NCBI GenBank assembly: GCA_003279615.1
Contig: QCHM01000004.1
Coordinates: 62,001-126,000, forward strand
Source: Prochlorococcus sp. AG-402-B19
GTDB taxonomy: Bacteria > Cyanobacteriota > Cyanobacteriia > PCC-6307 > Cyanobiaceae
DNA: 64,000 nucleotides
Direction of reading: 5' to 3'
A program made the translations under genes and the position numbers. Of the stretch, positions 1,619-64,000 are shown piece after piece (the first letter of the stretch is position 1; every line of letters starts with the position of its first letter). The notes beneath the pieces were generated by a model. That model made no database searches, was not told the DNA's origin, and saw only the letters and a program-made list of their open reading frames with translations.

Positions 1619-2923
1619 TTATGATTCATTAATTAAATTAAGCATCTCCATGGCTATTGGCGTCGCACTTGCAAGTAATGGACTCGTATTACCTCTGCTG
1701 CTAGAGAGTAAACGAGCAACATCATTTTCTAAAGTGCTTTTTTGAATAGGGACTACTTGCTCTATGAGCTCCATTCTTGCCATACCCCCAGCTTCTAATC
1801 TCATACATTCCCCAGATTCTGAGGCAAGAATTATACAAATATCATTTTTTTGCTTGTTTTTAGCTTTTGCAATTAATCTCAGTCCTACTATTTGACCAGG
1901 ATTAATGCTTGGCTTACCTATTGGTAAAGAAGTTAAGCTAACTGCTACAAGGATGTTATCAGGACGAATAAAATTTACTTTTACGAAATCTTTTTTTGAT
2001 AAGACGCAATTTTTAAGTTTCCAATTAAGGCGATCAGCAATCCATGCAGCGAGTAAGAGCCCTTGTACTGATTGAGAACCCTCAATATCAATATCAATTT
2101 TTTCTAAATTATCAAGAGCGTTTCTTCTTTGAAGGGGATCAAATACCATTGCCAATGTCTCTCTCCAACCTCTGAGACGAAGCCAATTTAGATCATTTAC
2201 AGCTTGTCCAGAATTAATTCTTTGAAGCATCAAATTCAGGCAGTCTTTTGGCTCTCCTAATGCAGTATCAATAATTAATCGTCGATTTGGTAGCGCAAGA
2301 GCATTAAGAAAGTCAGGGGCCTCATCAATTCTTCCATTCCACCATAACCAGGATGGAAGTTCATCTGGAACAAGAGTCTCAACGATTTCAAGTCCATCAT
2401 TAATTGCAGTCTTATTACCTCTTAAAACAATAACGTCGCCACATGCTGTTTTGCCTCCGCCTTCTTCAGGAAGTGGACAATATGCGGCTACTAAAGTCTC
2501 TAAATCATTCTTTTTTTCTATTGTAGGTGCAATTGTAATTAATCTTCTGGGTTGCAAATTACTAATTGAGGTGTCAATGTGTTGCCCTCTGAGGTCTTCT
2601 ACGTCTTTGGTTAATTCATCGCTTTTAATTGAAGATTGAACTTTAAAGTCAAGTGGGGAAGTGCTGTTAGGAAGATCTCCTTCTAAAATAATTTGTCTTG
2701 AAGCTTCTATAAGATCAATTCGTTGGCTCCCAACTATGGGACCAGATAGTTTTCCGCTTTTGACGAGTTTTTGCTCAATCCATGCTGGTTGCCAGATTAT
2801 CAAACAAAAAGTATTAGCTCCTTTATCCCCTCTCTGATCATGGGACCAGAGTTGATCAAGGTACGTGGGGATTTCAGATGGAGGTAGCTGAAGTGGTGTT
2901 TGAAGGGTTAATTGAGGAGACAT
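1619..2923 (-). CDS. opcA: Glucose-6-phosphate dehydrogenase assembly protein OpcA
   Basis: OpcA is a cyanobacterial/actinobacterial factor needed for oligomerisation and redox-linked activation of glucose-6-phosphate dehydrogenase. The 434-residue length and the N-terminal pattern (LTLQTPLQLPPSEIPTYLDQ) fit the family. It lies 37 bases downstream of zwf on the same strand, its classic neighbour in cyanobacteria, which is the strongest support for the call. No catalytic motif is expected. The ATG start is clear. Confidence 0.93.
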   Translation of the reverse strand: MSPQLTLQTPLQLPPSEIPTYLDQLWSHDQRGDKGANTFCLIIWQPAWIEQKLVKSGKLSGPIVGSQRIDLIEASRQIILEGDLPNSTSPLDFKVQSSIKSDELTKDVEDLRGQHIDTSISNLQPRRLITIAPTIEKKNDLETLVAAYCPLPEEGGGKTACGDVIVLRGNKTAINDGLEIVETLVPDELPSWLWWNGRIDEAPDFLNALALPNRRLIIDTALGEPKDCLNLMLQRINSGQAVNDLNWLRLRGWRETLAMVFDPLQRRNALDNLEKIDIDIEGSQSVQGLLLAAWIADRLNWKLKNCVLSKKDFVKVNFIRPDNILVAVSLTSLPIGKPSINPGQIVGLRLIAKAKNKQKNDICIILASESGECMRLEAGGMARMELIEQVVPIQKSTLENDVARLLSSSRGNTSPLLASATPIAMEMLNLINES

Positions 2924-2960
2924 CTATTTGATTTGAGTTAAAGATTTAGATTTAATTTTT

Positions 2961-4484
2961 TTAAGGTCTTCTCCATAAAAGTTGATCTTTGCCAATAAGT
3001 AAATCTGATTCAGTTGGTCCCCATGTCCTTGATTCATATTGATAAACAGGTAACTCCCATGGAGAGTCCTCAATTATCTCAAGAAGAGGAGTATATAAAC
3101 GCCAAGCAGCTTCTACTTCATCACTTCGGGTAAATAAGGTTGGATCTCCCAGCATTGCATCAGCAAGAAGTCTTACATACCCTTCATCTGAAGGCTCTCC
3201 AAAGGATTCGTCATAGGAAAACTCCATATTTACTGGTCTACTTCGCATACCAGAACCTGGAGATTTTACTTCAAAACTAAATTCAGCACCTTCATTGGGT
3301 TGAATTCTAAGAATTAATTGATTTGAAGTTGGACATCCTCCTGCTGCATCGAACAGATGTACGGGAGCTTCTCTGAAAGTTAGAACTACTTCACTCAGCC
3401 TTTTTGCTAGCCGCTTTCCTGTCCTTACATAAAAAGGTACTCCTTGCCATCTCCAATTATCTATGAATAGTTTCATTGCTACATATGTTTCTGTTGTGCT
3501 ATTTGGATTAACTCCTGGTTCTTCCCTATATCCAAGAAGAGGATATTCATTGCTACCTCCCCTTGAATACTGGCCTCTAACGCAGCATTCCCAGGGTTTC
3601 TCTTCATTAGCAAGCTTAACTGCTTGAAGGACTTTGGCCTTTTCATTCCTTATAGCTTCAGGATCAAAATGCCCTGGTGGTTCCATTGCAGTTAATGCAA
3701 GCATTTGAGTAAGATGATTTTGAACCATGTCTCTTAAAGCCCCTGAAGATTCATAATATCCAGCTCGATCTTCGACACCAACTGTCTCGGAACTAGTAAT
3801 TTGAACACTTGAGATATAATTTCTATTCCAGATTGGTTCAAAAATAGTATTGGCAAATCTAAGAACAAGAATATTTTGAACAGTTTCCTTGCCTAGATAA
3901 TGATCTATTCGAAATATCTGACTTTCTTGGGCACAACTTTGAACTAGGGAATTTAGTGACTGGGCACTGTTGAAGTCTCTTCCGAAAGGTTTTTCAATGA
4001 CAACCCTACTTCGTTTGGGATCTTTTAATAATCCAGCTGCAGCTAAAGCTCTACAACCACTTCCATAGAACTTCGGAGAAACTGAAAGGTAAAATGTTCT
4101 ATTACCGTGAGTTGCTCTTAATTTATCAATTACTTCAAGTCTTTTACCAAGTTTTACTAGGTGATCTGGTTGTTGGAGATCTACAGGTTCATAGAAAAGA
4201 TTTTGCGAAAATAATTCCCATTCTTTTGGACTATCTTTTATTTGGGAAGAAAGAGCATCTTCCATCTTCTCTTTAAATATCTCATCAGTCCAAGGTCTTC
4301 TAGCACAGCCTAAAACAGCAAATTCACTTGGCAATCTTCTTTGTTTAAAGAGCTCAAATAAGGCAGGAACAAGTTTCCTATGTGTTAAATCTCCAGAAGC
4401 CCCAAAAATAATCAGGCATTGAGGAGGAACCACTCGCTCTTGGCGAAGCCCAATTCTCAATGGGTTTGTTACTGGCATGCTCAT
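2961..4484 (-). CDS. zwf: Glucose-6-phosphate 1-dehydrogenase
   Basis: This enzyme oxidises glucose-6-phosphate with NADP+ and starts the oxidative pentose phosphate pathway, the main NADPH source at night in cyanobacteria. The nucleotide-binding segment IFGASGDLTHRKLVPALF is near the N terminus and the active-site signature RIDHYLGKE is present. The frame could begin at a TTG at 4502, but I chose the ATG at 4484: an AAGGA ribosome-binding site lies eight bases upstream (4493-4497, minus strand) and family N termini begin close to MxxTNPLR. That gives 507 residues. A further ATG two codons in (4478) is possible. It sits upstream of opcA and downstream of petH. Confidence 0.96.
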   Translation of the reverse strand: MSMPVTNPLRIGLRQERVVPPQCLIIFGASGDLTHRKLVPALFELFKQRRLPSEFAVLGCARRPWTDEIFKEKMEDALSSQIKDSPKEWELFSQNLFYEPVDLQQPDHLVKLGKRLEVIDKLRATHGNRTFYLSVSPKFYGSGCRALAAAGLLKDPKRSRVVIEKPFGRDFNSAQSLNSLVQSCAQESQIFRIDHYLGKETVQNILVLRFANTIFEPIWNRNYISSVQITSSETVGVEDRAGYYESSGALRDMVQNHLTQMLALTAMEPPGHFDPEAIRNEKAKVLQAVKLANEEKPWECCVRGQYSRGGSNEYPLLGYREEPGVNPNSTTETYVAMKLFIDNWRWQGVPFYVRTGKRLAKRLSEVVLTFREAPVHLFDAAGGCPTSNQLILRIQPNEGAEFSFEVKSPGSGMRSRPVNMEFSYDESFGEPSDEGYVRLLADAMLGDPTLFTRSDEVEAAWRLYTPLLEIIEDSPWELPVYQYESRTWGPTESDLLIGKDQLLWRRP

Positions 4485-8107: not shown

Positions 8108-8169
8108 GCTAGTGAAAATTTATTTTTTATAAATTTTTCCTGCATAAGATCTTTATGGACTAACAGCAC

Positions 8170-8631
8170 TTGAGGAATATAAAAAAATCTCCAAGAAAAA
8201 ATATCTTGGCCATTTCCATTTTTATCTGTTCAATACTTTTATCAAGTTGTAAGAACTCAGTAAGTTCAGAGTCTAGTCAAAGTAATGTTAGCTCTATCAA
8301 TAATGAGATTAAGTTTATTCCAGCTAGTAAAGAACAAATGAATTTGTATAGGCAGATTGGTGTTAGCTATCTATGTCTTGCAAGGCAAGCTAAGGTTGAG
8401 TTCCCTCAGGCAATTTCAATAGCCTCAAATAATTTTGTTTTATTAGTTTCAAAAAAACATGGCGGTCTTATAGAAGAAATAGGAGATAAAAAATTGACAA
8501 ATGATCAAATTTATCAAGGATCTTATTTGCAATTACTTGAGGGAGCTATCCAACTTTGCCCCGATCAGGTTCCTGAAGAAGATAAGACTAAATTTTCACA
8601 AGCTTTGGAAAAACTTAATCAAAAGGAATAA
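8170..8631 (+). CDS. Predicted lipoprotein of unknown function
   Basis: The protein has 153 residues and starts with TTG. It has a basic N terminus, a hydrophobic stretch and a lipobox LSSC with the lipidation cysteine at residue 27, followed by a Ser/Asn-rich linker, so it should be exported and anchored to a membrane. The mature part is soluble, with two cysteines (in SYLCLARQ and IQLCPDQ) that could form a disulfide. I do not recognise a family. It lies 32 bases upstream of pepN on the same strand. Confidence 0.75.
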   Translation: MRNIKKSPRKNILAISIFICSILLSSCKNSVSSESSQSNVSSINNEIKFIPASKEQMNLYRQIGVSYLCLARQAKVEFPQAISIASNNFVLLVSKKHGGLIEEIGDKKLTNDQIYQGSYLQLLEGAIQLCPDQVPEEDKTKFSQALEKLNQKE

Positions 8632-8663
8632 ATTTAACTTTATGAATTTTTTATTAATTTAAT

Positions 8664-11279
8664 ATGCCAACTACAAAATCTATAAAATTATCAGACTATA
8701 TAGAATATCCTTTTTTGATTAAAAGTATAGATTTAGATTTTAATATTGGTAAGGATTTTGTTGTTGTTAAATCTTCAATGATAATTGAACCAAAGTCCAA
8801 AATATCTTCAAAACTTATTCTTCAAGGTAATCAAATTAAATTATTATCAATTTTAATAAATGGGAATGAATTGAAATCAGAAGAATATAATATTTCTAAT
8901 CAGGAATTGGTTATTTATGCTACTCCCGCGTCGGAATTTGAATTAAAAATAAAATCAGAAATAGATCCATTTAACAATACATCATTAGAAGGATTGTACT
9001 TAAGCTCTGGGCTTCTAACTACACAATGCGAGGCTGAAGGCTTTAGAAGAATATGCTATCATCCTGATAGGCCAGATGTTTTGTCTAAGTATAAAGTAAG
9101 GATCGAAGCTGATAAAAAACAATACCCTGTATTATTGTCAAATGGCAACAAAAAATATTCAGGAAATTTAAATAATAATAGACATGAGATTGTATGGGAA
9201 GATCCATTCCCTAAGCCTTCTTATTTATTTGCTTTGGTTGCTGGTAAATTAAGTTTGATCTCTGATAAACATATCACAAACACTAATAGGGTTATTGATA
9301 TTAAAATATATGTCGAGGCTGGGGATGAAAGATATACACAACATGCGATTGATTCACTAAAGAAGGCTATGAAATGGGACGAGGATAAATATTATCTAGA
9401 GTATGATTTAGATGAATATAAAATTGTTGCTGTAAGGCATTTTAATATGGGTGCAATGGAAAATAAGGGTCTAAATATTTTTAATTCAAAGTTGGTTTTA
9501 GCTGACTCAAAAACAGCAACTGATGATGAATTAGAGAGAGTAGAAAGCGTAATAGCTCACGAGTATTTTCATAATTGGACTGGCAATAGAGTTACATGTC
9601 GTGATTGGTTTCAGCTATCTTTAAAGGAAGGTTTGACAGTTTTTAGAGACCAATCTTTTACAGCAGATCTTCACAGCGCTGGATTAAAAAGAATAGAGGA
9701 TGTATCATTCCTTAGAAATTTCCAATTTGCTGAAGATAAAGGACCTACTTCACACGCTGTTAAACCTAAAGAATATTTAGCTATTGATAATTTTTATACC
9801 ACCACAATATATGAAAAAGGCGCTGAGTTAATAAGAATGCTTGAGCTATTGCTTGGTTATGAAAGATTTATGAAAGGTATTAATGTTTATATAGAAACTT
9901 TCGATGGCAGAGCTGCCACAACCGAAGATTTCATTAACTCAGTTTTTAAAGGTTACTATGGACAAGAAAAGAAATGTAATTTTGATGTTGAGCAGTTTAA
10001 GAATTGGTATTATGAAGCAGGCACTCCAGAAGTTTATGTTAGTCAGGAATGGGATTCAATTAATTCAATTTTAAATGTTTCTTTTGAACAAAAATTAGAT
10101 AGTGCTATTAAGAAAGATAATAAAGAATTCGTTATACCAATTCTTTATTCTTGTTATAGTAAGGAAAAAAACTCCGAAGCTATTGTTGAGGATAATTTAT
10201 TTATCTTAGATAAAAGTAAAAAGAGGCTAACAATTAATTTGTTACCCGGTGAGAAAACCCATCCTGTGTTGTCAATTTTTAGAGGATTCTCTTCACCTGT
10301 TAAATGGCATTCTGATTTATCAATAGATGACTATCTTTTCCTTTTCTTAAATGATAATGACTATTTTACGAGGTGGGATTCTGGCCAGTTTTTGATAAGT
10401 AAGATAATTAAATCTAGGATTAATAAACACTCCAATCATTCTTTAGAAGATAAGTTTATTGATGCTATTAAGCATTCCATAAAAACTTTAGAAAGTAAAG
10501 ATCCTTTTTTCTTAGCATATATATTAACTTTACCAGGCTTGTCAGAATTGGAATCTTTGTTCATCAAAGTTGATCCGATAACAATTTATAATGAGTCTTT
10601 AAAATTTCAAGTTTTAATTGGTGAAAATGTTCTTGAGGATCTAAGACGAATTTCTGAAAGATTATTGGAAAATATTAACCAGGTTTGGCCAAATGGAAGA
10701 GGCGAAAGAAAACTTTTAGGGACAATATGGTCTTATTTAGCTCTTGCTGAAGATGCAAAAGTAAAAATTGATTGCGTTAACTCAATAGATAATTCTTCAA
10801 TGACTATCTCAAGAGCAGCTCTAGCAGCATTGAAGCCACTTGATTGCTCTGAGACGGAGGAGGCTTCGAATTTGTTTTATAACCTTTGGAAAGATAATCC
10901 AGTGGTTTTGGACTCATGGTTTTCATATGAGGCCTCAAGACCTAACAAATATGGAATTGACTTTATTGAAAAATTATTATCACATCCTAAATTTGATTGG
11001 AAAGCGCCAAATGCAATTCGAGCTGTTTTAGGAGGATTTACTAAAAATATCGACTTATTTCATTCTTTAGATGGAAAAGGTTATTTGTTTATGGCTGAAA
11101 AATTAATAGAGGTAGATAAATTTAATCCAATAACAGCATCAAGGCTTGTGAAGGTTTTCAGTAAATGGAATACTTACATCGAAAAAAATCAGGAAGAAAT
11201 GTACAAAGCAATTTTAAAAATAAGTAATGCAAATATATCTTCAAATACAAGAGAGGTAATTGAACTAATCTTAAAGTGA
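8664..11279 (+). CDS. pepN: Aminopeptidase N (M1 zinc metallopeptidase)
   Basis: This enzyme removes N-terminal amino acids from peptides in the cytoplasm. The 871-residue length matches bacterial PepN. The substrate-anchoring GAMEN motif is at residues 263-267 and the zinc motif HEYFHNW begins at H299 (ligands H299, H303 and E322 in LKEGLT). The C-terminal half is the helical domain typical of the family (ERKLLGTIWSYL, DNPVVLDSWFSYEA). The ATG start is clear. It converges on prs with a 9-base gap. Confidence 0.97.
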   Translation: MPTTKSIKLSDYIEYPFLIKSIDLDFNIGKDFVVVKSSMIIEPKSKISSKLILQGNQIKLLSILINGNELKSEEYNISNQELVIYATPASEFELKIKSEIDPFNNTSLEGLYLSSGLLTTQCEAEGFRRICYHPDRPDVLSKYKVRIEADKKQYPVLLSNGNKKYSGNLNNNRHEIVWEDPFPKPSYLFALVAGKLSLISDKHITNTNRVIDIKIYVEAGDERYTQHAIDSLKKAMKWDEDKYYLEYDLDEYKIVAVRHFNMGAMENKGLNIFNSKLVLADSKTATDDELERVESVIAHEYFHNWTGNRVTCRDWFQLSLKEGLTVFRDQSFTADLHSAGLKRIEDVSFLRNFQFAEDKGPTSHAVKPKEYLAIDNFYTTTIYEKGAELIRMLELLLGYERFMKGINVYIETFDGRAATTEDFINSVFKGYYGQEKKCNFDVEQFKNWYYEAGTPEVYVSQEWDSINSILNVSFEQKLDSAIKKDNKEFVIPILYSCYSKEKNSEAIVEDNLFILDKSKKRLTINLLPGEKTHPVLSIFRGFSSPVKWHSDLSIDDYLFLFLNDNDYFTRWDSGQFLISKIIKSRINKHSNHSLEDKFIDAIKHSIKTLESKDPFFLAYILTLPGLSELESLFIKVDPITIYNESLKFQVLIGENVLEDLRRISERLLENINQVWPNGRGERKLLGTIWSYLALAEDAKVKIDCVNSIDNSSMTISRAALAALKPLDCSETEEASNLFYNLWKDNPVVLDSWFSYEASRPNKYGIDFIEKLLSHPKFDWKAPNAIRAVLGGFTKNIDLFHSLDGKGYLFMAEKLIEVDKFNPITASRLVKVFSKWNTYIEKNQEEMYKAILKISNANISSNTREVIELILK

Positions 11280-11288
11280 TTTAATGAA

Positions 11289-12284
11289 TCATCTGAACAT
11301 TGAACTAACAGAACTTTCTTCGTGAATTCTCCAAATAGCTTCACCAAGCATATTCGCAACTGATAAAACCTTTAATTGAGAGAAATGTAAATTATTTGGC
11401 ACTGGGATACTATTCGTGACAATGACTTGTTCAAAAAGACCGTTTTTTGAAAGTCTCTCATAAGCAGGAGGAGAAAATACAGCATGAGATGCACATGCAA
11501 TAACTTTTTTTGCACCTTCTTTCCTTAGTAGTTCTGCTCCAGCACAAATAGTGCCACCTGTATCAATCATGTCATCAATTAATATTGCAGTCTTTCCAGA
11601 TACTTCTCCAATAACTGTAAGGCTTTCAGCAACGTTATGACCTGATCGTCTTTTATCAATAATTGCTAGAGGGGAATCTTTCATTTGTTTGGCAAAAGCC
11701 CTTGCCCTTGCAACACCTCCAACATCCGGAGAGACAACTACTATTTCTTCAAGTTCCATTTTTGATAGGTAATCCACTAAAACTGGTGAACCATATATGT
11801 GATCACACGGAATATCGAAATACCCTTGTATTTGAGCTGAATGTAAATCCATCGCAAGGACTCTATCAACTCCTGATTTGACAAGAATATTTGCGGTTAG
11901 TTTTGCTGTTATTGATTCTCTACCTGCTGTCTTCCTGTCTGCCCTTGCATAACCAAAGTATGGAATCACAGCAGTAATTTGCCTTGCAGATGCCCTTTTG
12001 CAAGCATCAACCATAATCATTAGCTCCATTAAACTGTCATTTACAGGAGCGCAAGTTGGTTGTATTAGAAAAACATCACATCCTCTTATTGATTGCTGGA
12101 TTTGAACATAAAGTTCTCCATCCGCAAACCTTTTTGAAACCAGAGGGACATTAGTAATCCCCATATAAGCTGCAATCTCTTTGGCTAATGCAGTATTAGA
12201 TGTCCCACTTATTAACCTGAGCCTATCAGTGTCATGTGTGAGACTAGTATTTTCAGGATGTGCTGCAGTGATAAAACTGGTCAC
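11289..12284 (-). CDS. prs: Ribose-phosphate pyrophosphokinase
   Basis: Prs makes PRPP from ribose-5-phosphate and ATP for nucleotides, histidine, tryptophan and NAD. The PRPP-binding signature AILIDDMIDTGGT, the flexible loop segment YARADRKTAGRE and the phosphate segment DLHSAQIQGYFDIP are all present. The open frame extends to a TTG at 12317, but I chose the GTG at 12284 because cyanobacterial Prs proteins begin with xTSFxTA and the extra 11 residues (MVCIFLACGGT) do not look like family sequence. That gives 331 residues, the usual length. Confidence 0.95.
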   Translation of the reverse strand: MTSFITAAHPENTSLTHDTDRLRLISGTSNTALAKEIAAYMGITNVPLVSKRFADGELYVQIQQSIRGCDVFLIQPTCAPVNDSLMELMIMVDACKRASARQITAVIPYFGYARADRKTAGRESITAKLTANILVKSGVDRVLAMDLHSAQIQGYFDIPCDHIYGSPVLVDYLSKMELEEIVVVSPDVGGVARARAFAKQMKDSPLAIIDKRRSGHNVAESLTVIGEVSGKTAILIDDMIDTGGTICAGAELLRKEGAKKVIACASHAVFSPPAYERLSKNGLFEQVIVTNSIPVPNNLHFSQLKVLSVANMLGEAIWRIHEESSVSSMFR

Positions 12285-13136
12285 GGTTCCACCGCAAGCA
12301 AGAAATATACAAACCAATCTACAGTTATGTTCGTTACATGATCATGAAAAAGCTTTTTTAAATTACTTCTCAAAAGGATTTATTTTCTCAGATAAAAGAA
12401 AGAATCCTTACGATGACTTATGTTTGAAGCAGTGACGTAAAAGAAATTTATAATGAATAGTTTTCTTTTGAAAACTTTAAAAAAGAATACTACGAGAATG
12501 TACTAGCACTTTTAAAGGAAGATCATGCTAAGAAATACTCAGGGAAAATCCAATGGCTTGAGATTTTGGAGATAAGTATCAAAAGCTCTAATTTTTCTAT
12601 ATAAATCCTATTGCTTAGTAGATGCCCTGGATCAGTACTCGCTTGTTACTTACTATGCAAAAATCATCCTTTCTAATGACAAGATTTTACAAGTTGGATA
12701 GGTAGAGATGAAAATAAAATTCTAAAGACAACATTCTCTGTTTTAGATTTCTTCTTTATGATGTACTGTAAGTTATAAAAAAATGTAATTAAATATACTA
12801 CTTATTAATATGAGTTATTAATATGAGGTGGTTTGAAATTTAACAATAAGCTTAAATTCGATTTACTGAACGTATGTTATTCTTTTATTTATTTATTTAT
12901 TTTGATTTGATTACTAAATAGTCTTAGTTAGGAAAAATTACAGATAATTTCTTGATTCACTAAATTAGATAATTTCGAAATAGGGATAATAAATTATCTC
13001 TATATGATAAATGGAATTTCTTTGATATTTAACTAAAAGATTTTCTATTTCATCTTGGCATTCATTTTGAATTTAGTAAAAAAATAGCTTTATTAGTATT
13101 TCTTTCTTATTTTTTAGTAATAATACAAAGTAAAAA
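12285..13136. other. Gene-poor gap of about 850 bases between prs and malQ
   Basis: The two flanking genes diverge from here, so both promoters should lie inside. I find no convincing open frame on either strand; several frames are interrupted every few codons. The stretch holds a 13-base tandem duplication at 12802-12827 and a TTTA-rich tract near 12884-12905. It may be the remains of a decayed gene or a site of past insertion. Confidence 0.6.
12802..12827. repeat. Perfect 13-base tandem duplication
   Basis: TTATTAATATGAG occurs twice with no gap in the prs-malQ spacer. It may be a slippage product; no function can be read from it. Confidence 0.8.
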
Positions 13137-14627
13137 TTGGAAAGAAATTCAGGAATCCTTCTACATCCAACTTCATTACCTGATAGTCCTATTTGCGGAA
13201 CTTTTGGAACCCCTGCGCGGTCATGGCTCAATAATCTTGCTAAATATGGAATAGGAGTTTGGCAATTTCTACCTTTAGCCCCCCCTGATTCATTGGGCTC
13301 TCCATATAGCTCTCCATCAAGCTTTGCTTTTAATCCATGGTTCTTAGATGAAAACGATTTAGTAAGAGACGGGTTTCTGGAACCTAATTTAGAAAAGTTT
13401 TCTTCAAAGATTGGTGATTTAGAAGAGAGAGTTGATTTTGAATTGGCTAATGCAAGAGTTAAGCTTTTAAGTCTTTCTTTAGTTCATTTCTGGGAAAAAC
13501 AGAATTCAATTATTAAAGAAGAGTTTGATATATGGTGTAAAAAACAATTTTGGTTAGATGATCATTCCATATTTATGGAACTGCGAATCCAGAATAATAA
13601 TCTTCCATGGTGGAAATGGCCTGAAAAATTTGCAATTTACGATAAGAGAGAATTAGCTAATTGGAAAAAAGATAATCAAAAAGAATTATTAGGTCATAAT
13701 TTGATTCAATGGCATTTAGATAGGCAGTGGAAATCAATAAGAGAATTAGCAAAAAATCTAGGAATTAGTTTGTTTGGAGATGTTCCTTTTTATGTTTCTA
13801 AAGACAGTGCAGATGTATGGAGTAATCGATCGTTATTTTCTATCAACACTAATTCAGATACATACCTTCAAAGTGGCGTTCCTCCTGATTATTTCTCTGA
13901 GACTGGTCAACTTTGGGGGAATCCAGTTTATAGATGGAGTAGACACAAAGCTGGTAAATTTAAATGGTGGAGAAAGAGAATTTCAAGACATCTAGAGCAG
14001 GTTGATTTTTTACGTCTTGATCATTTTCGTGCTCTAGAAGCTTTCTGGGCAATTCCGGGGAAAGATCTAACTGCTGAAAATGGATTTTGGTTGCCTTCGC
14101 CAGGGAAGGAGATACTAGCTTTATTAAAGAAAGATTGCGGTGGTTTTCTCCCTTTAGTTGCTGAAGATTTAGGTGTTATCACCTCAAAAGTTGAAAAGTT
14201 AAGGGATGACTATGAATTAGCAGGAATGAAAATACTTCAATTTGCCTTTGATGGGAATTTAGATAATCCCTATTTACCAGAGAATATAAAAGATGAGAAT
14301 TGGATTGTTTATACAGGCACTCATGATAATTCAACTTCGCTTGGCTGGTGGAGAGATATGGATCAAAATAATAAAGAACAAATTAAAGAAAGAATGTTTG
14401 ATTATGAGAATTTCTCTTCTTGGCAGTTGATTCATATTGGTATGGAAACCAAAGCAAAATTATTTGTGGCGCCTATGCAAGATTTGTTAAATCTTGATGA
14501 TTACTCCCGATTAAATAAACCTGGCACAATAGACAATAATTGGTCGTGGAGATTAACTAGTAGTAATTTCATTATAAATGAAGCTTTAAAAAGATATGGA
14601 GATTTAGCTGAAAAATATCAACGATAA
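13137..14627 (+). CDS. malQ: 4-alpha-glucanotransferase (amylomaltase)
   Basis: MalQ (GH77) transfers alpha-1,4-glucan segments during glycogen breakdown. The 496 residues contain the family N terminus (RNSGILLHPTSLP), the nucleophile segment FLRLDHFRALEAFW, the acid/base segment VAEDLGVIT and the third carboxylate in YTGTHDNSTSLGWW. The start must be the TTG at 13137: an in-frame TAA stands at 13131-13133 and the family homology begins at once. No strong ribosome-binding site is seen. It converges on the RodZ-like gene with an 8-base gap. Confidence 0.95.
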   Translation: MERNSGILLHPTSLPDSPICGTFGTPARSWLNNLAKYGIGVWQFLPLAPPDSLGSPYSSPSSFAFNPWFLDENDLVRDGFLEPNLEKFSSKIGDLEERVDFELANARVKLLSLSLVHFWEKQNSIIKEEFDIWCKKQFWLDDHSIFMELRIQNNNLPWWKWPEKFAIYDKRELANWKKDNQKELLGHNLIQWHLDRQWKSIRELAKNLGISLFGDVPFYVSKDSADVWSNRSLFSINTNSDTYLQSGVPPDYFSETGQLWGNPVYRWSRHKAGKFKWWRKRISRHLEQVDFLRLDHFRALEAFWAIPGKDLTAENGFWLPSPGKEILALLKKDCGGFLPLVAEDLGVITSKVEKLRDDYELAGMKILQFAFDGNLDNPYLPENIKDENWIVYTGTHDNSTSLGWWRDMDQNNKEQIKERMFDYENFSSWQLIHIGMETKAKLFVAPMQDLLNLDDYSRLNKPGTIDNNWSWRLTSSNFIINEALKRYGDLAEKYQR

Positions 14628-14635
14628 TAATTTAT

Positions 14636-15166
14636 TTATTTTTGGATATTATTTATATTTTCATTCTCTATGTTTGTCTCATTTATGACAACTGGTTCTG
14701 TGGAGATGCTATGTATTTTTAAAAGATATTTCTGTTGACTGTTAATTGCTAATATTGAGACAAGCATAATTATAAAATACAAAAAACTCCCAATCCAGCT
14801 ATTTAAAAAATCTATATTAATGAAATTAAATTTAAATTTTGATAAACTATTATTTTTAGTTTCTTGAGCTAATAGTCCATTTAAGCTTCCTCTTTCTAAA
14901 TTGAGTTCAATCTCAAGTATTTTGAGCATTGTTATTAAATAAGTATATTCAGGTAAATACTTTTCCCATCCATTCTCAATTGCTATTAATACATTTCTTG
15001 AAATCTTTGTTTTATTTGATAATTCTTCTAATGAAATTCCCAGTTTTTCTCTTTGAGACTTAAATATTTTGATTGTTTTTGAAATCTCTTCATTTGTATC
15101 TTGCTTATCGTTCATGCTTGAGGATTCTGATAGGGGTTTCTTAAAAGGAATAATCATAATATTCAA
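14636..15166 (-). CDS. RodZ-like membrane protein with N-terminal helix-turn-helix
   Basis: Residues about 30-95 form a Xre/RodZ-type helix-turn-helix (FKSQREKLGISLEELSNKTKI, then IENGWEKYLPEYTYLITMLK). A single transmembrane segment follows at about 130-145 (FLYFIIMLVSILAI), then a short tail of about 30 residues. In RodZ this arrangement links MreB to the membrane and helps set cell shape. The protein is much shorter than E. coli RodZ and lacks the large periplasmic domain. The start is unclear: TTG at 15166, ATG at 15157 or ATG at 15115. Confidence 0.65.
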   Translation of the reverse strand: MNIMIIPFKKPLSESSSMNDKQDTNEEISKTIKIFKSQREKLGISLEELSNKTKISRNVLIAIENGWEKYLPEYTYLITMLKILEIELNLERGSLNGLLAQETKNNSLSKFKFNFINIDFLNSWIGSFLYFIIMLVSILAINSQQKYLLKIHSISTEPVVINETNIENENINNIQK

Positions 15167-15175
15167 ATGATTTTT

Positions 15176-15889
15176 TTAATCAAGAAGTGGAATCCATTCT
15201 TTTCTAGCTAGTTCTCGCCATTCCCCTTCCTGTAAACCATTCAATTTAATATTTGAGATCGCTATTCTTTGCAGATCTTGAACTGGATGTCCAATAAGGT
15301 TTGCGATTCGCCTGAGTTGTCGATTACGCCCTTCTTTTAGAATGACTTTAAGAAGCGTCATATGATTAATGATTTCCATAACTTCAATAGTCGCTGGCAT
15401 TGTGATTTTGCCATCAAGTAAAATTCCTGTTCTCCACTTATCTAGTATCGAGCGACTAGGCTGACCAGTTACCCAAATTAAATATGTTTTTGTATGTGAG
15501 TACTTTGGATGCGTAAGTTTTAAAGTGAGGTCTCCATTATTGGTAAGTAGAATTGCTCCTCTGCTCTCTGAATCTAGGCGGCCTACAGGATGTATACCAT
15601 GACGTAGGTTGGAGGGGATTAAACTTAAAATTGTTTTTCTGCCATGATTATCATGGCAAGTAGATATGACTCCATGAGGTTTATTTAATAGTAAAACTTT
15701 ATGATTTGGCTTTTTAGGTAGATGTTTTCCATCAACTAAAATATGATCAGAATATGGGTTCGCTTTCTCTCCAATAATAGCTTGTCTCCCATTCAAGGTT
15801 ACTCGACCTTGTTTTATTAGTAAATCAGCTTTTCGTCTAGATGAAAAGCCAGATTGAGATATTATTTTTTGTAATCTACTAAGTGACAT
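15176..15889 (-). CDS. RsuA/RluB-family pseudouridine synthase
   Basis: The protein isomerises a uridine in ribosomal RNA. The N-terminal S4 RNA-binding domain (residues about 1-50, SGFSSRRKADLLIKQGRV) is followed by the catalytic domain, with the motif GRLDSESRG and its catalytic aspartate at residue 105, and GRNRQLRRI near the C terminus. At 237 residues it is the usual length. The family splits into RsuA (16S), RluB, RluE and RluF (23S); which one this is cannot be told from sequence alone. It is 9 bases upstream of the RodZ-like gene. Confidence 0.9.
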   Translation of the reverse strand: MSLSRLQKIISQSGFSSRRKADLLIKQGRVTLNGRQAIIGEKANPYSDHILVDGKHLPKKPNHKVLLLNKPHGVISTCHDNHGRKTILSLIPSNLRHGIHPVGRLDSESRGAILLTNNGDLTLKLTHPKYSHTKTYLIWVTGQPSRSILDKWRTGILLDGKITMPATIEVMEIINHMTLLKVILKEGRNRQLRRIANLIGHPVQDLQRIAISNIKLNGLQEGEWRELARKEWIPLLD

Positions 15890-15963
15890 TAAAAACTAAA
15901 TTATATTTTTCAATTTAATATTAACCTAATTCATATTGAAGACTAGAGATAATATTTTTCTCA

Positions 15964-58500: not shown

Positions 58501-58644
58501 CTAAGCTTCAGAATCGAATTTAGATAGATTTGGTCCTGCAATAAAACCAACTAATCCAAACAGAACAAGGGATACAACACCGACAATAGTCGCTGAGAGG
58601 CTTCCCCCTCCCAAAGCAAAGGTTAAGAATGGCAAATGAAGCAT
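58501..58644 (-). CDS. 47-residue single-span membrane micro-protein
   Basis: The ATG start at 58644 opens a 47-residue frame: a short N terminus (MLHLPFLTFALGGGS), a glycine/valine-rich membrane span (ATIVGVVSLVLFGLVGFIAG) and a soluble tail (PNLSKFDSEA). Codon use is regular and the GC content is higher than in the flanks. It has the look of a small thylakoid protein, but I cannot assign it. Confidence 0.6.
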   Translation of the reverse strand: MLHLPFLTFALGGGSLSATIVGVVSLVLFGLVGFIAGPNLSKFDSEA

Positions 58645-58749
58645 TTTTTTTTAGATGCAGGTATATATATAAACCTAAAATTGCCCAAATTTAGTGAAGT
58701 TGTAGCACCTTGATAAATTCAGACATTTTTTAAGCGGCTTAAGAAAAAG

Positions 58750-59025
58750 TTAAGCAGTAGGAAAATTGTTTGGAAACCTAGTTGCTAGTTCGTCTTTGGT
58801 TGAGTTAGTTTCTCCCTTTAGCCAATCCTTTACTCCATTAGGCTTCACTATCTGAGCATTACGGGCTGCGAAAATAATCACATGAAAGGGTATGACTATT
58901 GCGAAAAAGAAGAAATGAAGTAAATATAAATCCCAAGGTATGCCTTGGTAACCATAGTCCGGGAAAAATATTGCAGTAATAAAAGGAAGCACCATGTTGT
59001 TCAAATTATTTACTGTATTAATCAT
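58750..59025 (-). CDS. Small membrane protein of unknown function
   Basis: The 91-residue protein has a proline- and aromatic-rich N-terminal part (FFPDYGYQGIPWDLYLLHFF), a membrane span (FFFAIVIPFHVIIFAA) and a polar C terminus. No family is recognised. It is followed on the same strand by the 47-residue micro-gene, 105 bases on. Confidence 0.65.
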   Translation of the reverse strand: MINTVNNLNNMVLPFITAIFFPDYGYQGIPWDLYLLHFFFFAIVIPFHVIIFAARNAQIVKPNGVKDWLKGETNSTKDELATRFPNNFPTA

Positions 59026-59182
59026 TATCCATAAAGCATGAATTCTCTCACTAAGGCAAGATATTTTAACTTCTAGAAATGCTAATGAATTTGTATATGC
59101 TTGTTATCAGAACTGCCCAATTAGACTTTTAAGTGAAGTTATTGATGGATTGACCATTACTGTGACCCGTTTGCTCAAAACA

Positions 59183-59458
59183 TTAATTAATACGGTTTTC
59201 TATTAATTTAACTAGCCTAAAACTAAAATATATACTTGTTATTATCCATATCGGTAGAATTATATTCCAGGCTTTTTGATGTTTTAAAAGAATAAGCTTA
59301 TCTAGAAGATAGGCTCCAACTATTGGAATAGATATTAGTAATGTCATTTTTAAAAATACTTCAAGGAATGCTTCTGCAGCTACTGGGTTAATAAGCCATG
59401 CTATTAATATTCCACTTAGTAGGTATCCCCCATACTGTCCTAGTTTTCTTATCATCAT
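59183..59458 (-). CDS. Small membrane protein of unknown function
   Basis: The 91-residue protein has about three hydrophobic segments (GGYLLSGILIAWLI, FLKMTLLISIPIVGAYLL and WNIILPIWIITSIYFSF). Start is ATG, with a second ATG directly after it. I do not recognise a family. Confidence 0.55.
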   Translation of the reverse strand: MMIRKLGQYGGYLLSGILIAWLINPVAAEAFLEVFLKMTLLISIPIVGAYLLDKLILLKHQKAWNIILPIWIITSIYFSFRLVKLIENRIN

Positions 59459-59653
59459 TAATACTTTCTGGTTTTTTGTCTTTGTCCATTATATCTTTTA
59501 AGACAATTAAGGACAAAAGATTATTTTAGTATTTATTTTATATCAGTAACCCTATCAAAAGTTATTTAAGCGATAAATAAACTATAAGAATAAATAACAA
59601 AGCGTATAAGAGATGAATTTATTTGGTTAGAATTATATTGAGATCTACTTCAT

Positions 59654-59881
59654 TCAATCTTTAGACTTAGGATAGAGTTTTTGAATAGCATCAGCTTGCC
59701 TTTTCTCTGTTTTCTTTTTTAGCTTTATTTCGTTAAATCTCCTGACTATAATCCCTGGTATGAACCAAATTACAGTTATCAAAGAAAAGATAAAGATCGG
59801 ATTATTTATTGTCATATCAATTAATGCATTCTTTACTAAAAGAAAATAAAAATTGTTAATCAACAATAATAGATAGTACAT
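59654..59881 (-). CDS. Small membrane protein with basic tail
   Basis: The frame spans 75 residues; an internal ATG at 59815 (MTINNPIFIF) may be the true start. A membrane span (FIFSLITVIWFIPGIIV) is followed by a highly charged tail (RRFNEIKLKKKTEKRQADAI). The function is unknown. Confidence 0.5.
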   Translation of the reverse strand: MYYLLLLINNFYFLLVKNALIDMTINNPIFIFSLITVIWFIPGIIVRRFNEIKLKKKTEKRQADAIQKLYPKSKD

Positions 59882-59930
59882 TGATGTTAAATGATAAAAA
59901 TTACTATAAAAAGATTATTTGTACTTGCTT

Positions 59931-60200
59931 TCATTCTTCTTCCTTAGACTGATTATCTAAATATATTTTAGATTCATCAGCAATAATTTTTAGGAAATTA
60001 TCATTATCATTAGATTCTATCAGTTCTATTGAGTTATTATATTTTATTTTTATATCCTTACCAGACCATGCTGCTTGGTCTTTGAAAAGATTTCTTTTTG
60101 CTGAATTAAAAGCTTTTCTCCCGAGAAATATTATGGCTATTATTATTATGGATATTAGAAAAAATATTTTCATTATTATAAGATCTAATTTTTCAATCAT
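59931..60200 (-). CDS. Small membrane-anchored protein
   Basis: The 89-residue protein has one N-terminal span (KIFFLISIIIIAIIFLG) and a soluble acidic C-terminal part (SNDNDNFLKIIADESKIYL). Starts are ATG at 60200 or 60173. No family is recognised. Confidence 0.5.
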   Translation of the reverse strand: MIEKLDLIIMKIFFLISIIIIAIIFLGRKAFNSAKRNLFKDQAAWSGKDIKIKYNNSIELIESNDNDNFLKIIADESKIYLDNQSKEEE

Positions 60201-60256
60201 AACACTTTTGAACTTATATTTGATAGTTGAAAAAAAACTAAATAAATAGAGGCTAG

Positions 60257-60370
60257 ATGATTCGGTGTTCTCTTAAGCTTTGTCTTCTGACTCTCTTGTT
60301 TTTATATATTAGCTATTTAGATTCTATTCTTAAGCTGTTTGGTTTTTATTTCTTCTCAATCTTTAATTAA
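60257..60370 (+). CDS. 37-residue hydrophobic micro-protein
   Basis: An ATG preceded by AGAGG at five bases opens a short frame: basic start (MIRCSLKLC), then hydrophobic residues (LLTLLFLYISYLDSILKLFG). The good ribosome-binding site supports translation, but length and AT-rich composition leave doubt. Confidence 0.35.
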   Translation: MIRCSLKLCLLTLLFLYISYLDSILKLFGFYFFSIFN

Positions 60371-60426
60371 AATTTGCCATTCTTTTAATTGTTTGCTAAA
60401 GATATGTTTGTAACAGTATTGACAAA

Positions 60427-60768
60427 ATGTTGTCTTGGCTAAATCTTAGCAAAGTTACTTATATATTATCTAATTTACTGGTTTTACCTGCTATTTTTAT
60501 TCCATATATTGATTTTCTGGCAAATTTATCTTTTGTCATTTCCACCTTTTTGTTGATAAATAAAAACCTGTTACTTTTATTTGGTGTTTGCATTTTATTT
60601 ATTATTAAAAATAATTGGAATTATAGATTTAACCTTTTATTAAAGATAAAAGGTGAGGAAGTCTCTAAGTCAGATAATGAATGTGTTTATTTATATGCTT
60701 GGTGCACATTACTAAGATATTTATTGATTGGAATTGCATTCAATCAAGTATTAATACTTTTAAAATGA
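60427..60768 (+). CDS. Small multi-span membrane protein
   Basis: The 113-residue protein has about four hydrophobic segments and a short polar stretch in the middle (KIKGEEVSKSDNECVYLY). Two cysteines lie near the C-terminal span. The ATG start is clear. No family is recognised. Confidence 0.6.
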   Translation: MLSWLNLSKVTYILSNLLVLPAIFIPYIDFLANLSFVISTFLLINKNLLLLFGVCILFIIKNNWNYRFNLLLKIKGEEVSKSDNECVYLYAWCTLLRYLLIGIAFNQVLILLK

Positions 60769-60811
60769 TTAATTTATCCACATAATCATCAAGAGTATAA
60801 AAACAGTTTTT

Positions 60812-61069
60812 TTAATTATTTTTAGGTGGATTAATCACTCCTGTATTTTTATTTATTCGGCGTTTGATGTCTTCTATGATTTTATTACGTTGCTTTTCAT
60901 TATTGTCTGGATCTAATGAAGCGAACCAATTTTCTAAATACCAAGACTGATAACCTTTTTTATCCACCTCAACTTTTACAAACCCCTCTTGACCTGAAAA
61001 GTAATAAACCCCTTCGGGGAGTTTTTCGAAATCAAACTCCTCGTTTTCTTTCTTTTGGATATATACCAT
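60812..61069 (-). CDS. Small soluble acidic protein
   Basis: The 85-residue protein is charged and aromatic-rich (NEEFDFEKLPEGVYYFSGQE, then YQSWYLENWFASLDPDNNE), with a basic stretch near the end (RNKIIEDIKRRINKNTG). The start is ATG. I do not recognise the family. Confidence 0.6.
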   Translation of the reverse strand: MVYIQKKENEEFDFEKLPEGVYYFSGQEGFVKVEVDKKGYQSWYLENWFASLDPDNNEKQRNKIIEDIKRRINKNTGVINPPKNN

Positions 61070-61300
61070 GCTTATTTTAAAAGGTCTCTCTAATCTTTGT
61101 ATCCTATATCAGCGATCTAATGGAAGTAATGTCTGATTATTTTTAGATAACGTTTTTTCTATAATATTAAGTAGAATTTCTTTATATATCTATGCTTTTT
61201 AGGGGTTCTGATCAAATGTTTATCTAAATATTTAGGAAATATAATGTTTAGTTGCTTTTATCTTTATAAATGTGAATGATTGAGTATATACATAAATTTT

Positions 61301-61477
61301 ATGTGCCCTTTTAGTAAAGAGTTCTCACTTCTTGCCAAAACGTTTGAGTACTCAGATTATCTGGAAGATTCAGATTGGAAATTTCAGAAATATAATTTGG
61401 TAAATGCTTCAGGTTACTCTGATCTTTTGGAAGATACTGAATGGGGAACTAGATCTGATGATTTAACTATTGCTTGA
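61301..61477 (+). CDS. Small protein with an internal repeat
   Basis: I chose the ATG at 61301 (58 residues); a TTG at 61280 would add seven. The unit YSDxLED[ST][DE]W occurs twice, at residues 17-26 and 39-48, 22 residues apart, suggesting an internal duplication. The protein is acidic, with a single cysteine at residue 2. The function is unknown. Confidence 0.55.
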   Translation: MCPFSKEFSLLAKTFEYSDYLEDSDWKFQKYNLVNASGYSDLLEDTEWGTRSDDLTIA

Positions 61478-61506
61478 TAAAAGATCTAAAATTTGCTGCT
61501 TCTGTT

Positions 61507-62007
61507 TTAATCTGAGATTATAAATTCAGAAATGAATTTTTCGCTTATCCATTCAAGCTCGTGATTTTCTTTTTGGTTTCTAGCTAAAATTATTATAGGT
61601 ATATTAATATTGTTATTTTCAATTGTTTTTCTGTATCCAATTAAAAGTTCTACGTATTTTTTAAATGTCCATCCATTGTTACCTTTTGATTCCCATTTTG
61701 ATGAGTTTCTAAGAGATCGATGAAAATCTTCAATACCAAATTCATTCCAACATTCTTGTATTGCAAGTAAAGGTTCATGACCTTCTTTGAGTAATTGTTG
61801 GTATTGAATTATTTCTGGAGCTTCTTTTGAGTTGTCTGGTTTAAGTTCTTTAGCTAAATCATATAACGTAATTTTTTTTAGCTTGAACCAATCTCGATCA
61901 AAAAGAAAAACCGGGAAATCTAATGACCATTTGTTATCCTTTAAGCTTTTGTAGGTTTCAGTAAATTCATTAATATGTTTTGGGAGAAACTTATAGTATT
62001 TTTTCAT
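61507..62007 (-). CDS. Hypothetical soluble protein
   Basis: The frame reaches a GTG at 62013, but AAAGGTG just upstream favours the ATG at 62007, giving 166 residues. The protein is rich in Trp, Lys and Glu (NKWSLDFPVFLFDRDWFKLKK; EPLLAIQECWNEFGIEDFH). No motif or membrane span is seen, and I do not recognise a family. Confidence 0.6.
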   Translation of the reverse strand: MKKYYKFLPKHINEFTETYKSLKDNKWSLDFPVFLFDRDWFKLKKITLYDLAKELKPDNSKEAPEIIQYQQLLKEGHEPLLAIQECWNEFGIEDFHRSLRNSSKWESKGNNGWTFKKYVELLIGYRKTIENNNINIPIIILARNQKENHELEWISEKFISEFIISD

Positions 62008-62134
62008 AAACACCTTTTCTTCTGTAATTTCTTTTAGTTTTAACTTTTAGAAGTTACGTATAATTATTATAATTCTAAAGGAAAATCATTGATATTTTGA
62101 TTATATTATGTTTAATTAGGATTTATCAAATTTA

Positions 62135-62254
62135 ATGAATAAAAATAATAAGCGTCCTGCATGGCTCAACTGGGTTTATCTTGGAATATTTTTATATTCT
62201 TCTTATTTCTTATTTAATTATTGGTCAGTTATTTTGGAAAATAATATTTCATAA
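62135..62254 (+). CDS. 39-residue single-span membrane micro-protein
   Basis: The ATG opens a short frame with a basic N terminus (MNKNNKRPAWLNW), an aromatic-rich span (VYLGIFLYSSYFLFNYW) and a short tail. It has the layout of other picocyanobacterial micro-proteins. It is not assigned. Confidence 0.45.
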   Translation: MNKNNKRPAWLNWVYLGIFLYSSYFLFNYWSVILENNIS

Positions 62255-62309
62255 AAATATAACCAAATCTGTTAAAACATAACTACGGTTTATTTTATTT
62301 TGAATTAAA

Positions 62310-62402
62310 TCATCCAGCAAAGACTGGCAACCCTAGGGTGGCTGTGCTGATTAATGCTCCTGCAAATAGAATGAAAGGAAGGAAGGGATACTTTTCAATC
62401 AT
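62310..62402 (-). CDS. 30-residue single-span micro-protein
   Basis: The ATG at 62402 opens a frame that is almost entirely one hydrophobic span (FLPFILFAGALISTATLGL), with a charged start (MIEKYP). The start of the span recalls the 47-residue protein at 58.6 kb. GC content is higher than in the flanks, which supports coding. Confidence 0.45.
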   Translation of the reverse strand: MIEKYPFLPFILFAGALISTATLGLPVFAG

Positions 62403-62434
62403 AAATTGGATTGCTGCTTATAGGTAATTATACC

Positions 62435-62560
62435 ATGCTAAGTATTTATACTCCAGCCATGGCTGAAGATTGTCATTATTGCTTATTCGTTCATTTGAGT
62501 GAGATTCGACTTTTTATGTGTTCAATTGCCTTTTTGTGCTATCGATATTTTCTTTGGTGA
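62435..62560 (+). CDS. Possible 41-residue cysteine-rich micro-protein
   Basis: An ATG opens a 41-codon frame with four cysteines (DCHYC, FMC and FLC) and a hydrophobic C terminus. It overlaps a 12-base palindrome and has no clear ribosome-binding site. It may be chance. Confidence 0.25.
   Translation: MLSIYTPAMAEDCHYCLFVHLSEIRLFMCSIAFLCYRYFLW
62454..62465. promoter_or_regulatory. 12-base palindrome
   Basis: CAGCCATGGCTG is a perfect inverted repeat with a GC-rich edge in an AT-rich region. It may be an operator, but it could also be coding sequence of the small frame that covers it. Confidence 0.2.
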
Positions 62561-62576
62561 GTGCTTAAAAACTAAA

Positions 62577-62714
62577 TCACGCGCCAATTGCCTGTAAGGA
62601 ATTTTTTTCAAGTTCAAATGAGAGCGCACAGCTCACTATCCATTTCTCAATGAATTGCTCATCGCCAACTTCAACAACAAAAACTTTTTTCTGGTGATGG
62701 TAATTTAATTTCAT
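62577..62714 (-). CDS. 45-residue soluble micro-protein
   Basis: The ATG at 62714 opens a regular frame: a basic start (MKLNYHHQKK), a hydrophobic strand-like part (VFVVEVGDEQFIEKWIVSC) and a short tail. The amino-acid mix is that of a real protein rather than a chance frame. The family is unknown. Confidence 0.5.
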   Translation of the reverse strand: MKLNYHHQKKVFVVEVGDEQFIEKWIVSCALSFELEKNSLQAIGA

Positions 62715-63250
62715 GCAGCAGCTCAGCAAAGTTAGGAATTAGTCTCAATTTCTTGGCTTGTATACAAATTAGGAAATATTTTTATTCTTTTTGTGACATA
62801 ATCAGAAAAATTTACTTACATTATTTCTAATATATGTAACTAATGATCTTATCTCATTTTTAAATAGATATGAGGTAATTAATGAATGTAAGTATTTCAG
62901 AATTTATAAAATGCTTATAATTTGTTTCTGGAGATTTACAGAAGATTAAATTTAGCATCTCGATTTTTTTTATAACTATTATAAGTATTAAGGGTTTCTA
63001 CCACTCTATAAGATAATATTCTTTGGATGTTTTTCATTATTAAATATAGAATATTTTCCAATATCATAAAGAAATAAGGTTAATTTTAGATTGAGTTGAT
63101 ATCGTAAATTTTTAGAGTGATTTAAATAACAATTAAAATTGGATTCATAAATAATTGTTAGAAATGATTTGCTCTTAAATGTCTAGAAATCTTTATCAAC
63201 AAGCAATCTCTTGGATAAAATTCGCAACCATTTATACTAATGTGATAGTT
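62715..63250. other. Gene-free AT-rich stretch
   Basis: About 540 bases with no frame longer than about 20 codons that looks coding on either strand. I see no tRNA or clear hairpin-terminator here. Confidence 0.5.
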
Positions 63251-63367
63251 TCATAAGAGGCCTAGGTTTCCAGCTGTAAAACCAACAGCGCAGAAAAAAA
63301 CAAATTCAATTAAATCACGACTCCCTGAGGGAATTGAATTCAAAACAACGTTAATTCGTTGAGCCAT
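63251..63367 (-). CDS. 38-residue micro-protein
   Basis: The ATG at 63367 opens a frame with a polar N terminus (MAQRINVVLNSIPSGSRD) and a hydrophobic C-terminal span (FVFFCAVGFTAGNLGLL). GC content rises over the frame compared with the flanks. Unassigned. Confidence 0.5.
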   Translation of the reverse strand: MAQRINVVLNSIPSGSRDLIEFVFFCAVGFTAGNLGLL

Positions 63368-63604
63368 TTGACCTTGTACTCGCAGGTGAAAGAAAAAGAT
63401 AATACAAAATTTCCAAAATTGAGGTCTGTTTTATTGGGTCTAACCGTACTTTTATAATTTCTACTTATTTGTCCTTGAGTTGCGTTGAAGCAAAATTATA
63501 CGTAAATATTAAAATAGGCTTCTTTTATTTATTAGTTTTCAAAAAGAAATAAATATATTTTTATCTATTTATTTAAACTTTTCTAATAGTATATTTTTTA
63601 ATTG

Positions 63605-63778
63605 TTAGCCAAATATTTTTCCTCGAATTTGATCAAGAGATGAGCCCCTTTTTTTCTCCTCTTTTGTTAAAGGAATCCAGTTCCAGTCAATACTGACAGT
63701 AAGTAGATACCCAACGAGTATGTGCCAAATCAAAATTAAAAGTGGATGGTCTAAATGAGGACTCAAAGTAGTCTCCAA
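63605..63778 (-). CDS. 57-residue membrane micro-protein
   Basis: A TTG at 63778 (or another two codons upstream) opens a frame with a polar start (ETTLSPHLDHP), a membrane span (LLILIWHILVGYLLTVSIDW) and a soluble basic tail (LTKEEKKRGSSLDQIRGKIF). The lack of an ATG lowers confidence. The amino-acid pattern is convincing and the tail is rich in charged residues. Confidence 0.5.
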   Translation of the reverse strand: METTLSPHLDHPLLILIWHILVGYLLTVSIDWNWIPLTKEEKKRGSSLDQIRGKIFG

Positions 63779-64000
63779 TAACAAATTTTAATCTTAACCA
63801 ATCATGTGGATTGCTACGAGTTTATAAAACAAAAATGACTATATATTGCTTCATTTTAGGCCCCCAACAATCTTTAACAACAAGGAAAGCGCTTTATATT
63901 TCTTAGCCTAGCTGTTAATATTCCTTAATATATCCATTCGTGATGGCTTCTCGGCGGAAGATTCTTATGGTTGGCTGGGATTTTCTCGTTTTGCTGTAGT

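Follow-up and report, generated by a model that had tools for sequence, protein, structure and literature searches.

We analyzed the small genes near the end of a 64,000-nucleotide window of the Prochlorococcus sp. AG-402-B19 genome (contig QCHM01000004.1, positions 62,001 to 126,000 of the forward strand), among them a gene, here called L, for a 38-amino acid (aa) protein that is also carried by cyanophages. The source genome is a 1.55-Mb draft (87.5% complete), probably of a low-light I (NATL-like) Prochlorococcus. A SulP transporter gene precedes the stretch, which is syntenic in ~25 congeners at 70-85% DNA identity. A first-pass annotation had pointed to a concentration of small, mostly hydrophobic genes here and had proposed that their conservation and synonymous/nonsynonymous substitutions be checked. 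Accordingly, all frames of at least 28 codons between 58040 and 64000 were projected onto DNA alignments with up to 25 congeneric loci and judged by third-position excess and by the ratio of nonsynonymous to synonymous substitution rates (dN/dS); reading frames were then checked in protein alignments. Note that real changes in end length, together with local-alignment gaps, inflated the frameshift counts of some true genes. Thirteen small frames (genes A to M) showed codon-phased substitutions with dN/dS values of 0.04-0.28, in agreement with the protein alignments. The remaining overlapping or antisense frames of this length failed the same test, and the coding signal of the thirteen therefore lies above chance. 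Thus, the small-protein genes clustered in this stretch are genuine and lineage-specific, and the stretch is not a run of chance frames. Its features are as follows.

58501..58644, minus strand: gene A, 47-aa one-helix protein; dN/dS 0.10 in 25 congeners, sequence near-identical
58750..58995, minus strand: gene B, 81-aa membrane protein; dN/dS 0.04; open reading frame (ORF) 58750-59025, conserved start at 58995
59183..59458, minus strand: gene C, 91-aa two-helix membrane protein; dN/dS 0.11; intact in 22 of 25
59654..59881, minus strand: gene D, 75-aa one-helix protein with a basic tail; dN/dS 0.14
59931..60200, minus strand: gene E, small protein with an N-terminal membrane anchor; conserved start near 60158; dN/dS 0.22
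60427..60768, plus strand: gene F, 113-aa polytopic membrane protein; dN/dS 0.28
60812..61069, minus strand: gene G, 85-aa soluble protein; dN/dS 0.19
61301..61477, plus strand: gene H, 58-aa acidic soluble protein; dN/dS 0.05, almost invariant
61507..62007, minus strand: gene I, 166-aa soluble protein; dN/dS 0.14
62135..62254, plus strand: gene J, one-helix protein of 36-39 aa (36 aa in the window); dN/dS 0.14
62310..62402, minus strand: gene K, 30-aa one-helix protein; dN/dS 0.09
62577..62729, minus strand: gene remnant, matching part of a ~132-aa protein
63251..63367, minus strand: gene L, one-helix protein of 38 aa from a family shared by Prochlorococcus and cyanophages (phrog_17067, T4-GC 594); dN/dS 0.11
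63368..63386, minus strand: conserved non-coding 5' leader of L, CCTGCGAGTACAAGGTCAA
63605..63784, minus strand: gene M, one-helix protein of ~53-59 aa, start codon uncertain; dN/dS 0.11 in 23 congeners

The frames named in the first-pass annotation were all found where it had placed them, with slight differences at two ends (62577-62729 and 63605-63784). Its seven genes of 58-166 codons became eight, and five of its eight very short frames proved to be genes, the others being one remnant and two spurious frames. No congener matched the non-coding frame 60257-60370 (plus strand). The frame 62435-62560 (plus strand) was rejected as a gene: extended to 62411-62560, it is broken in 22 of 22 relatives, with a dN/dS of 0.76. 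About half of the congeners have an intact gene for the ~132-aa protein. In several others and in the window genome it is broken, and in the latter two fragments remain at 62411-62740 in different frames.

By hydropathy, ten of the thirteen proteins are of membrane type, bearing out the description as mostly hydrophobic; G, H and I are soluble. The claimed local rise in GC content was seen over several true genes (58501, 60812, 61301, 62310 and 63605), was missing at others (59183, 59931 and 60427), and was slight or nil over the three false frames. The proposal of undescribed micro-proteins failed for three of the eight shortest frames and otherwise mostly stood: the proteins are under purifying selection, and those tested had no credible match in Pfam or NCBIfam, single-protein hits being at chance level. 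No relatives in phages were found in searches with A, B, H, J or the decayed ~132-aa gene, and the latter also matched no known family. The set of small genes is thus real and partly overlooked; what we say of its functions we infer from sequence and context.

Gene L has the most informative relatives. A NATL-type consensus copy matched phrog_17067 (E 5.4e-11 over residues 9-38), and L aligned with T4-GC 594 phage proteins over 34 residues at 59-65% identity. A tblastn search with L found 24 phage records, including P-SSM2, P-SSM5, P-SSM7, P-HM2, P-TIM68, S-SSM7 and P-RSM1; the phage gene is annotated as hypothetical protein T4-GC 594 in P-SSM2 (PSSM2_279.1) and P-HM2 (PHM2_203) and is unannotated in many others. 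A profile scan of IMG/VR yielded 216 contigs that encode L. In the host family, L occurs in 55 of 161 genomes, nearly all small and Prochlorococcus-type, and often in multiple copies at different loci. Here, small genomes of the family are taken to be Prochlorococcus, and large genomes to be Synechococcus or Cyanobium, an assignment that record titles support for the leader-bearing loci. L is thus common to host and phage genomes, as defines a cyanophage auxiliary gene. The ratio of nonsynonymous to synonymous polymorphism (pN/pS) was ~0.32-0.34 both among leader-type host copies and among viral copies. AlphaFold2 predicted a short N-terminal helix followed by a long helix at residues 14-34, with a predicted local distance difference test score (pLDDT) of ~80-90. 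A search of the open literature for a host counterpart of T4-GC 594, for its linkage to hli genes across many contigs or for its leader found none of these described.

The phage copies of L follow a cluster of hli genes, which encode high-light-inducible proteins (HLIPs), in P-SSM2, P-SSM7 and P-HM2. Their further neighbours are ferredoxin (P-SSM2), ferredoxin and psbA (P-SSM7), or heme oxygenase, psbA and psbD (P-HM2). We fetched 80 viral loci, 58 of which had at least 1.2 kb of upstream sequence. An hli motif was present within 1.5 kb of L in 57 of these 58 loci (median 324 nt upstream), a count that does not amount to 58 independent events, as phage cassettes share ancestry. Among host loci of L, 5 of 14 had hli within 1 kb, whereas 294 kb of control DNA from hosts contained a single hli motif. 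Genomic context thus places L in a light-stress gene neighbourhood of Prochlorococcus and T4-like phages. The first-pass annotation had tentatively linked the whole group of small genes to photosynthetic membranes and phages; this context supports the link for 63251-63367 only, and evidence for a photosynthetic role was not found for the others.

L itself is not a degenerate HLIP: the motif ExxNGRxAMxG is missing, 0 of 11 members match Pfam, and profile comparison with HLIPs gave a probability of 0.7%. An identity with the Yfr6 peptide was likewise rejected by position. In the genome that we take to be MED4, the L copy lies at 1,070,566, and Yfr14/Yfr6 near 628 kb. This L copy is ~1.1 kb from a porin-like gene (stretch L120, positions 275-1420 and 2566). 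PMM1119 and PMM1121 are porins. Both are Yfr1 targets (PMC6778093). Another study describes 113 short ORFs that are new for MED4 (PMC2518516), and L or J may be among them. Just upstream of its L copy, P-HM2 encodes another short peptide, which resembles L at the C-terminus (stretch L133, position 3893).

Directly upstream of L lies a leader of ~19 nt, and from genus to genus the ~20 nt that precede the start codon hardly vary. Column identity averages 0.88 at positions -22 to -1, 0.63 between -45 and -23, and 0.47 beyond these; the leader is also more conserved than third codon positions (0.63). It exists in a low-light form, CCTGYGAGTACAAGGTYCAA, and a high-light form, CCTGAGGAGCACAAGGTAAA. 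The leader pattern had a single match in the window and none in 100 shuffles. A blind scan of genome contigs gave 19 matches. Eighteen of these were in Prochlorococcus, each followed by an L frame (18/18), and the 19th was in a Pseudomonadota bin with no L frame after it. Among viral contigs, the high-light form matched in 12; an L-type frame came next in all 12, and hli lay upstream in most. The leader was rejected as an N-terminal extension of L and is non-coding, because a one-nucleotide difference in length between one genus (g1) and the others shifts the frame. The hli-adjacent copies of low-light hosts and the copies of P-SSM2, P-SSM7 and P-HM2 do not have the leader, and there are therefore at least two forms of the L locus. 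No Rfam family was found at 63150-63600 up to an E value of 5. The high-light leader contains TGAGGAG, with 7 nt complementary to the Yfr1 core, most low-light forms having 6 nt and the window form fewer; judged by eye, the leader is not supported as a Yfr1 target.

Genes A and B are confined to small Prochlorococcus-type genomes (14 and 18 of 59 family genera, respectively), and A is often paired with L in other genera. Pairs of A and L within 1 kb were found in eight genomes, one of them presumably SS120, from four genera, and B follows within ~0.5-4 kb in several genomes. Under random placement, pairing in four genera has a binomial P of ~2e-9 at the genus level, a value that treats genera as independent and ignores their shared ancestry. 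The pairing weakly suggests that A works together with L. One congener has a second, paralogous B-A-D-L cluster (stretch L065, 589000-597000, at positions 1800-4066).

Gene J is near-universal in the picocyanobacterial family, being found in 130 of 161 family genomes and in 92 of the 99 good ones. In a phylum-wide draw of 244 genomes, J matched in 24, all members of the picocyanobacterial family, and in none outside it. Its hydropathy is below the usual cut-off, and we assign it to the membrane class from a single aromatic-rich span. The neighbourhood of J is variable and suggests no function; a Rieske-type oxygenase gene is upstream in ~7 of 19 loci. The family-wide conservation of J would fit a core membrane role, perhaps as a subunit of a picocyanobacterial membrane complex. 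J would be a tiny membrane protein marking the entire picocyanobacterial family.

Among the other genes, H is present in four genera and contains an internal repeat of two similar motifs, YSDYLEDSDW and YSDLLEDTEW; a partial paralog is located on another contig of the same genome (stretch L126, positions 3062-3169). Gene K is confined to two genera (g1 and g18), and a single second-position change was seen in all comparisons with 25 relatives together. Past the downstream end of the window, its own genome has further small uncharacterised genes (stretch L057, positions 8164-15920).

What might L do? Photosynthesis genes of the host, psbA and hli among them, are known from cyanophages. To judge from its neighbours, L would reside in the thylakoid membrane beside HLIPs, where it may assist them in binding, assembling or stabilising a pigment-protein complex or a complex for photosystem II repair, contributing to photosystem II protection and repair under light stress and during infection. 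The copy held by cyanophages in the psbA/hli cassette would allow photosynthesis to continue in the infected cell, and the leader directly before the start codon may set or regulate translation of L. In MED4 infected with P-HM2, a phage that carries L, transcripts of the host's hli genes increase in the light (PMC5082946). That L is a widespread one-helix partner of HLIPs, translated under the control of a leader common to high-light Prochlorococcus and phages and carried with hli for light protection, is a tentative proposal, which we rate somewhat below even. The overall picture, a genuine small-gene cluster in which L is a thylakoid HLIP partner carried by phages, seems to us about as probable as its negation. 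If true, current models of photosystem II maintenance by phage and host in light and infection would lack a component: a 38-aa companion, unannotated in many records, that occurs across Prochlorococcus and in more than 200 viral contigs.

Several observations weigh against L as an HLIP partner. Nine of the 14 host copies, and the window copy itself, have no hli gene nearby, and L is missing or broken at this site in several congeners. Profile searches with A, B, J, K, L and M found no relative among solved chains. The shared ancestry of phage cassettes and of host genera, mentioned above, also lessens the force of the hli and A-L counts. L could instead be a small membrane peptide, regulatory or toxic in the manner of a type I toxin or a holin, that phages keep to take over the host, its adjacency to hli reflecting a phage insertion hot spot for host genes. 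A 38-aa one-helix peptide whose ribosome-binding site is covered by a tightly conserved leader would suit such a role, as would the patchy presence of L and its loss at this site. The psbA region is among the hot spots of variable genes in cyanophages (PMC3037559), and Steglich et al. proposed toxin-antitoxin roles for Yfr6 and Yfr9 in Prochlorococcus (PMC2518516). However, L is under purifying selection in both host and phage, adjoins hli in host chromosomes too, differs from Yfr6 by its position in MED4, and has no known RNA family at its site in the Rfam search described above. We regard a toxin or regulator as distinctly unlikely.

An accessory island would be a broader alternative, in which the small genes are real yet dispensable, turn over without a common function, and have a recombination hot spot in the A-L-B neighbourhood. 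Gene content does vary between genera, one gene is decaying in several lineages, a congener has the second B-A-D-L cluster elsewhere, and several copies of L often occur at separate loci. The very low dN/dS (0.04-0.14) of A, B, H, J, K, L and M, the near-universal presence of J and the conservation of the leader argue against dispensability, and we consider an island of this kind unlikely, if somewhat less so than a toxin. Chance ORFs in AT-rich non-coding DNA, a caveat already raised by the first-pass annotation, do account for 60257-60370, 62435-62560 and most other frames of at least 28 codons, and the caveat extends to the remnant at 62577-62729. For the thirteen coding frames, chance is refuted by codon-phased substitutions, intact frames and cross-genus homologs; as an account of the cluster it is extremely improbable.

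The proteins of the cluster can be compared with several known systems. Like J, PSHCP of Prochlorococcus and marine Synechococcus is small, clade-specific and conserved, without homologs beyond its clade; PSHCP, however, has been proposed to be ribosome-associated (PMC4215834), whereas J is a 36-aa membrane-type protein. The Norf and HliR1 micro-proteins of Synechocystis are similar by description, as formerly unannotated cyanobacterial micro-proteins, some with one helix (PMC5126843); J has no match in cyanobacteria beyond its family. PsbT, PetN, NdhP and NdhQ, small subunits of photosystem, cytochrome b6f and NDH-1 complexes, share small size and a single span with the proteins described here, but A, B, J, K, L and M have no sequence relation to any solved chain. 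T4-GC 594/phrog_17067 is the same protein family as L and appears in the records only as an unnamed phage cluster. HLIPs carry ExxNGRxAMxG, whereas L has neither this motif nor a Pfam or HLIP profile match; like L, however, they are small one-helix proteins of both host and phage, and L adjoins their genes in phage and some host loci.

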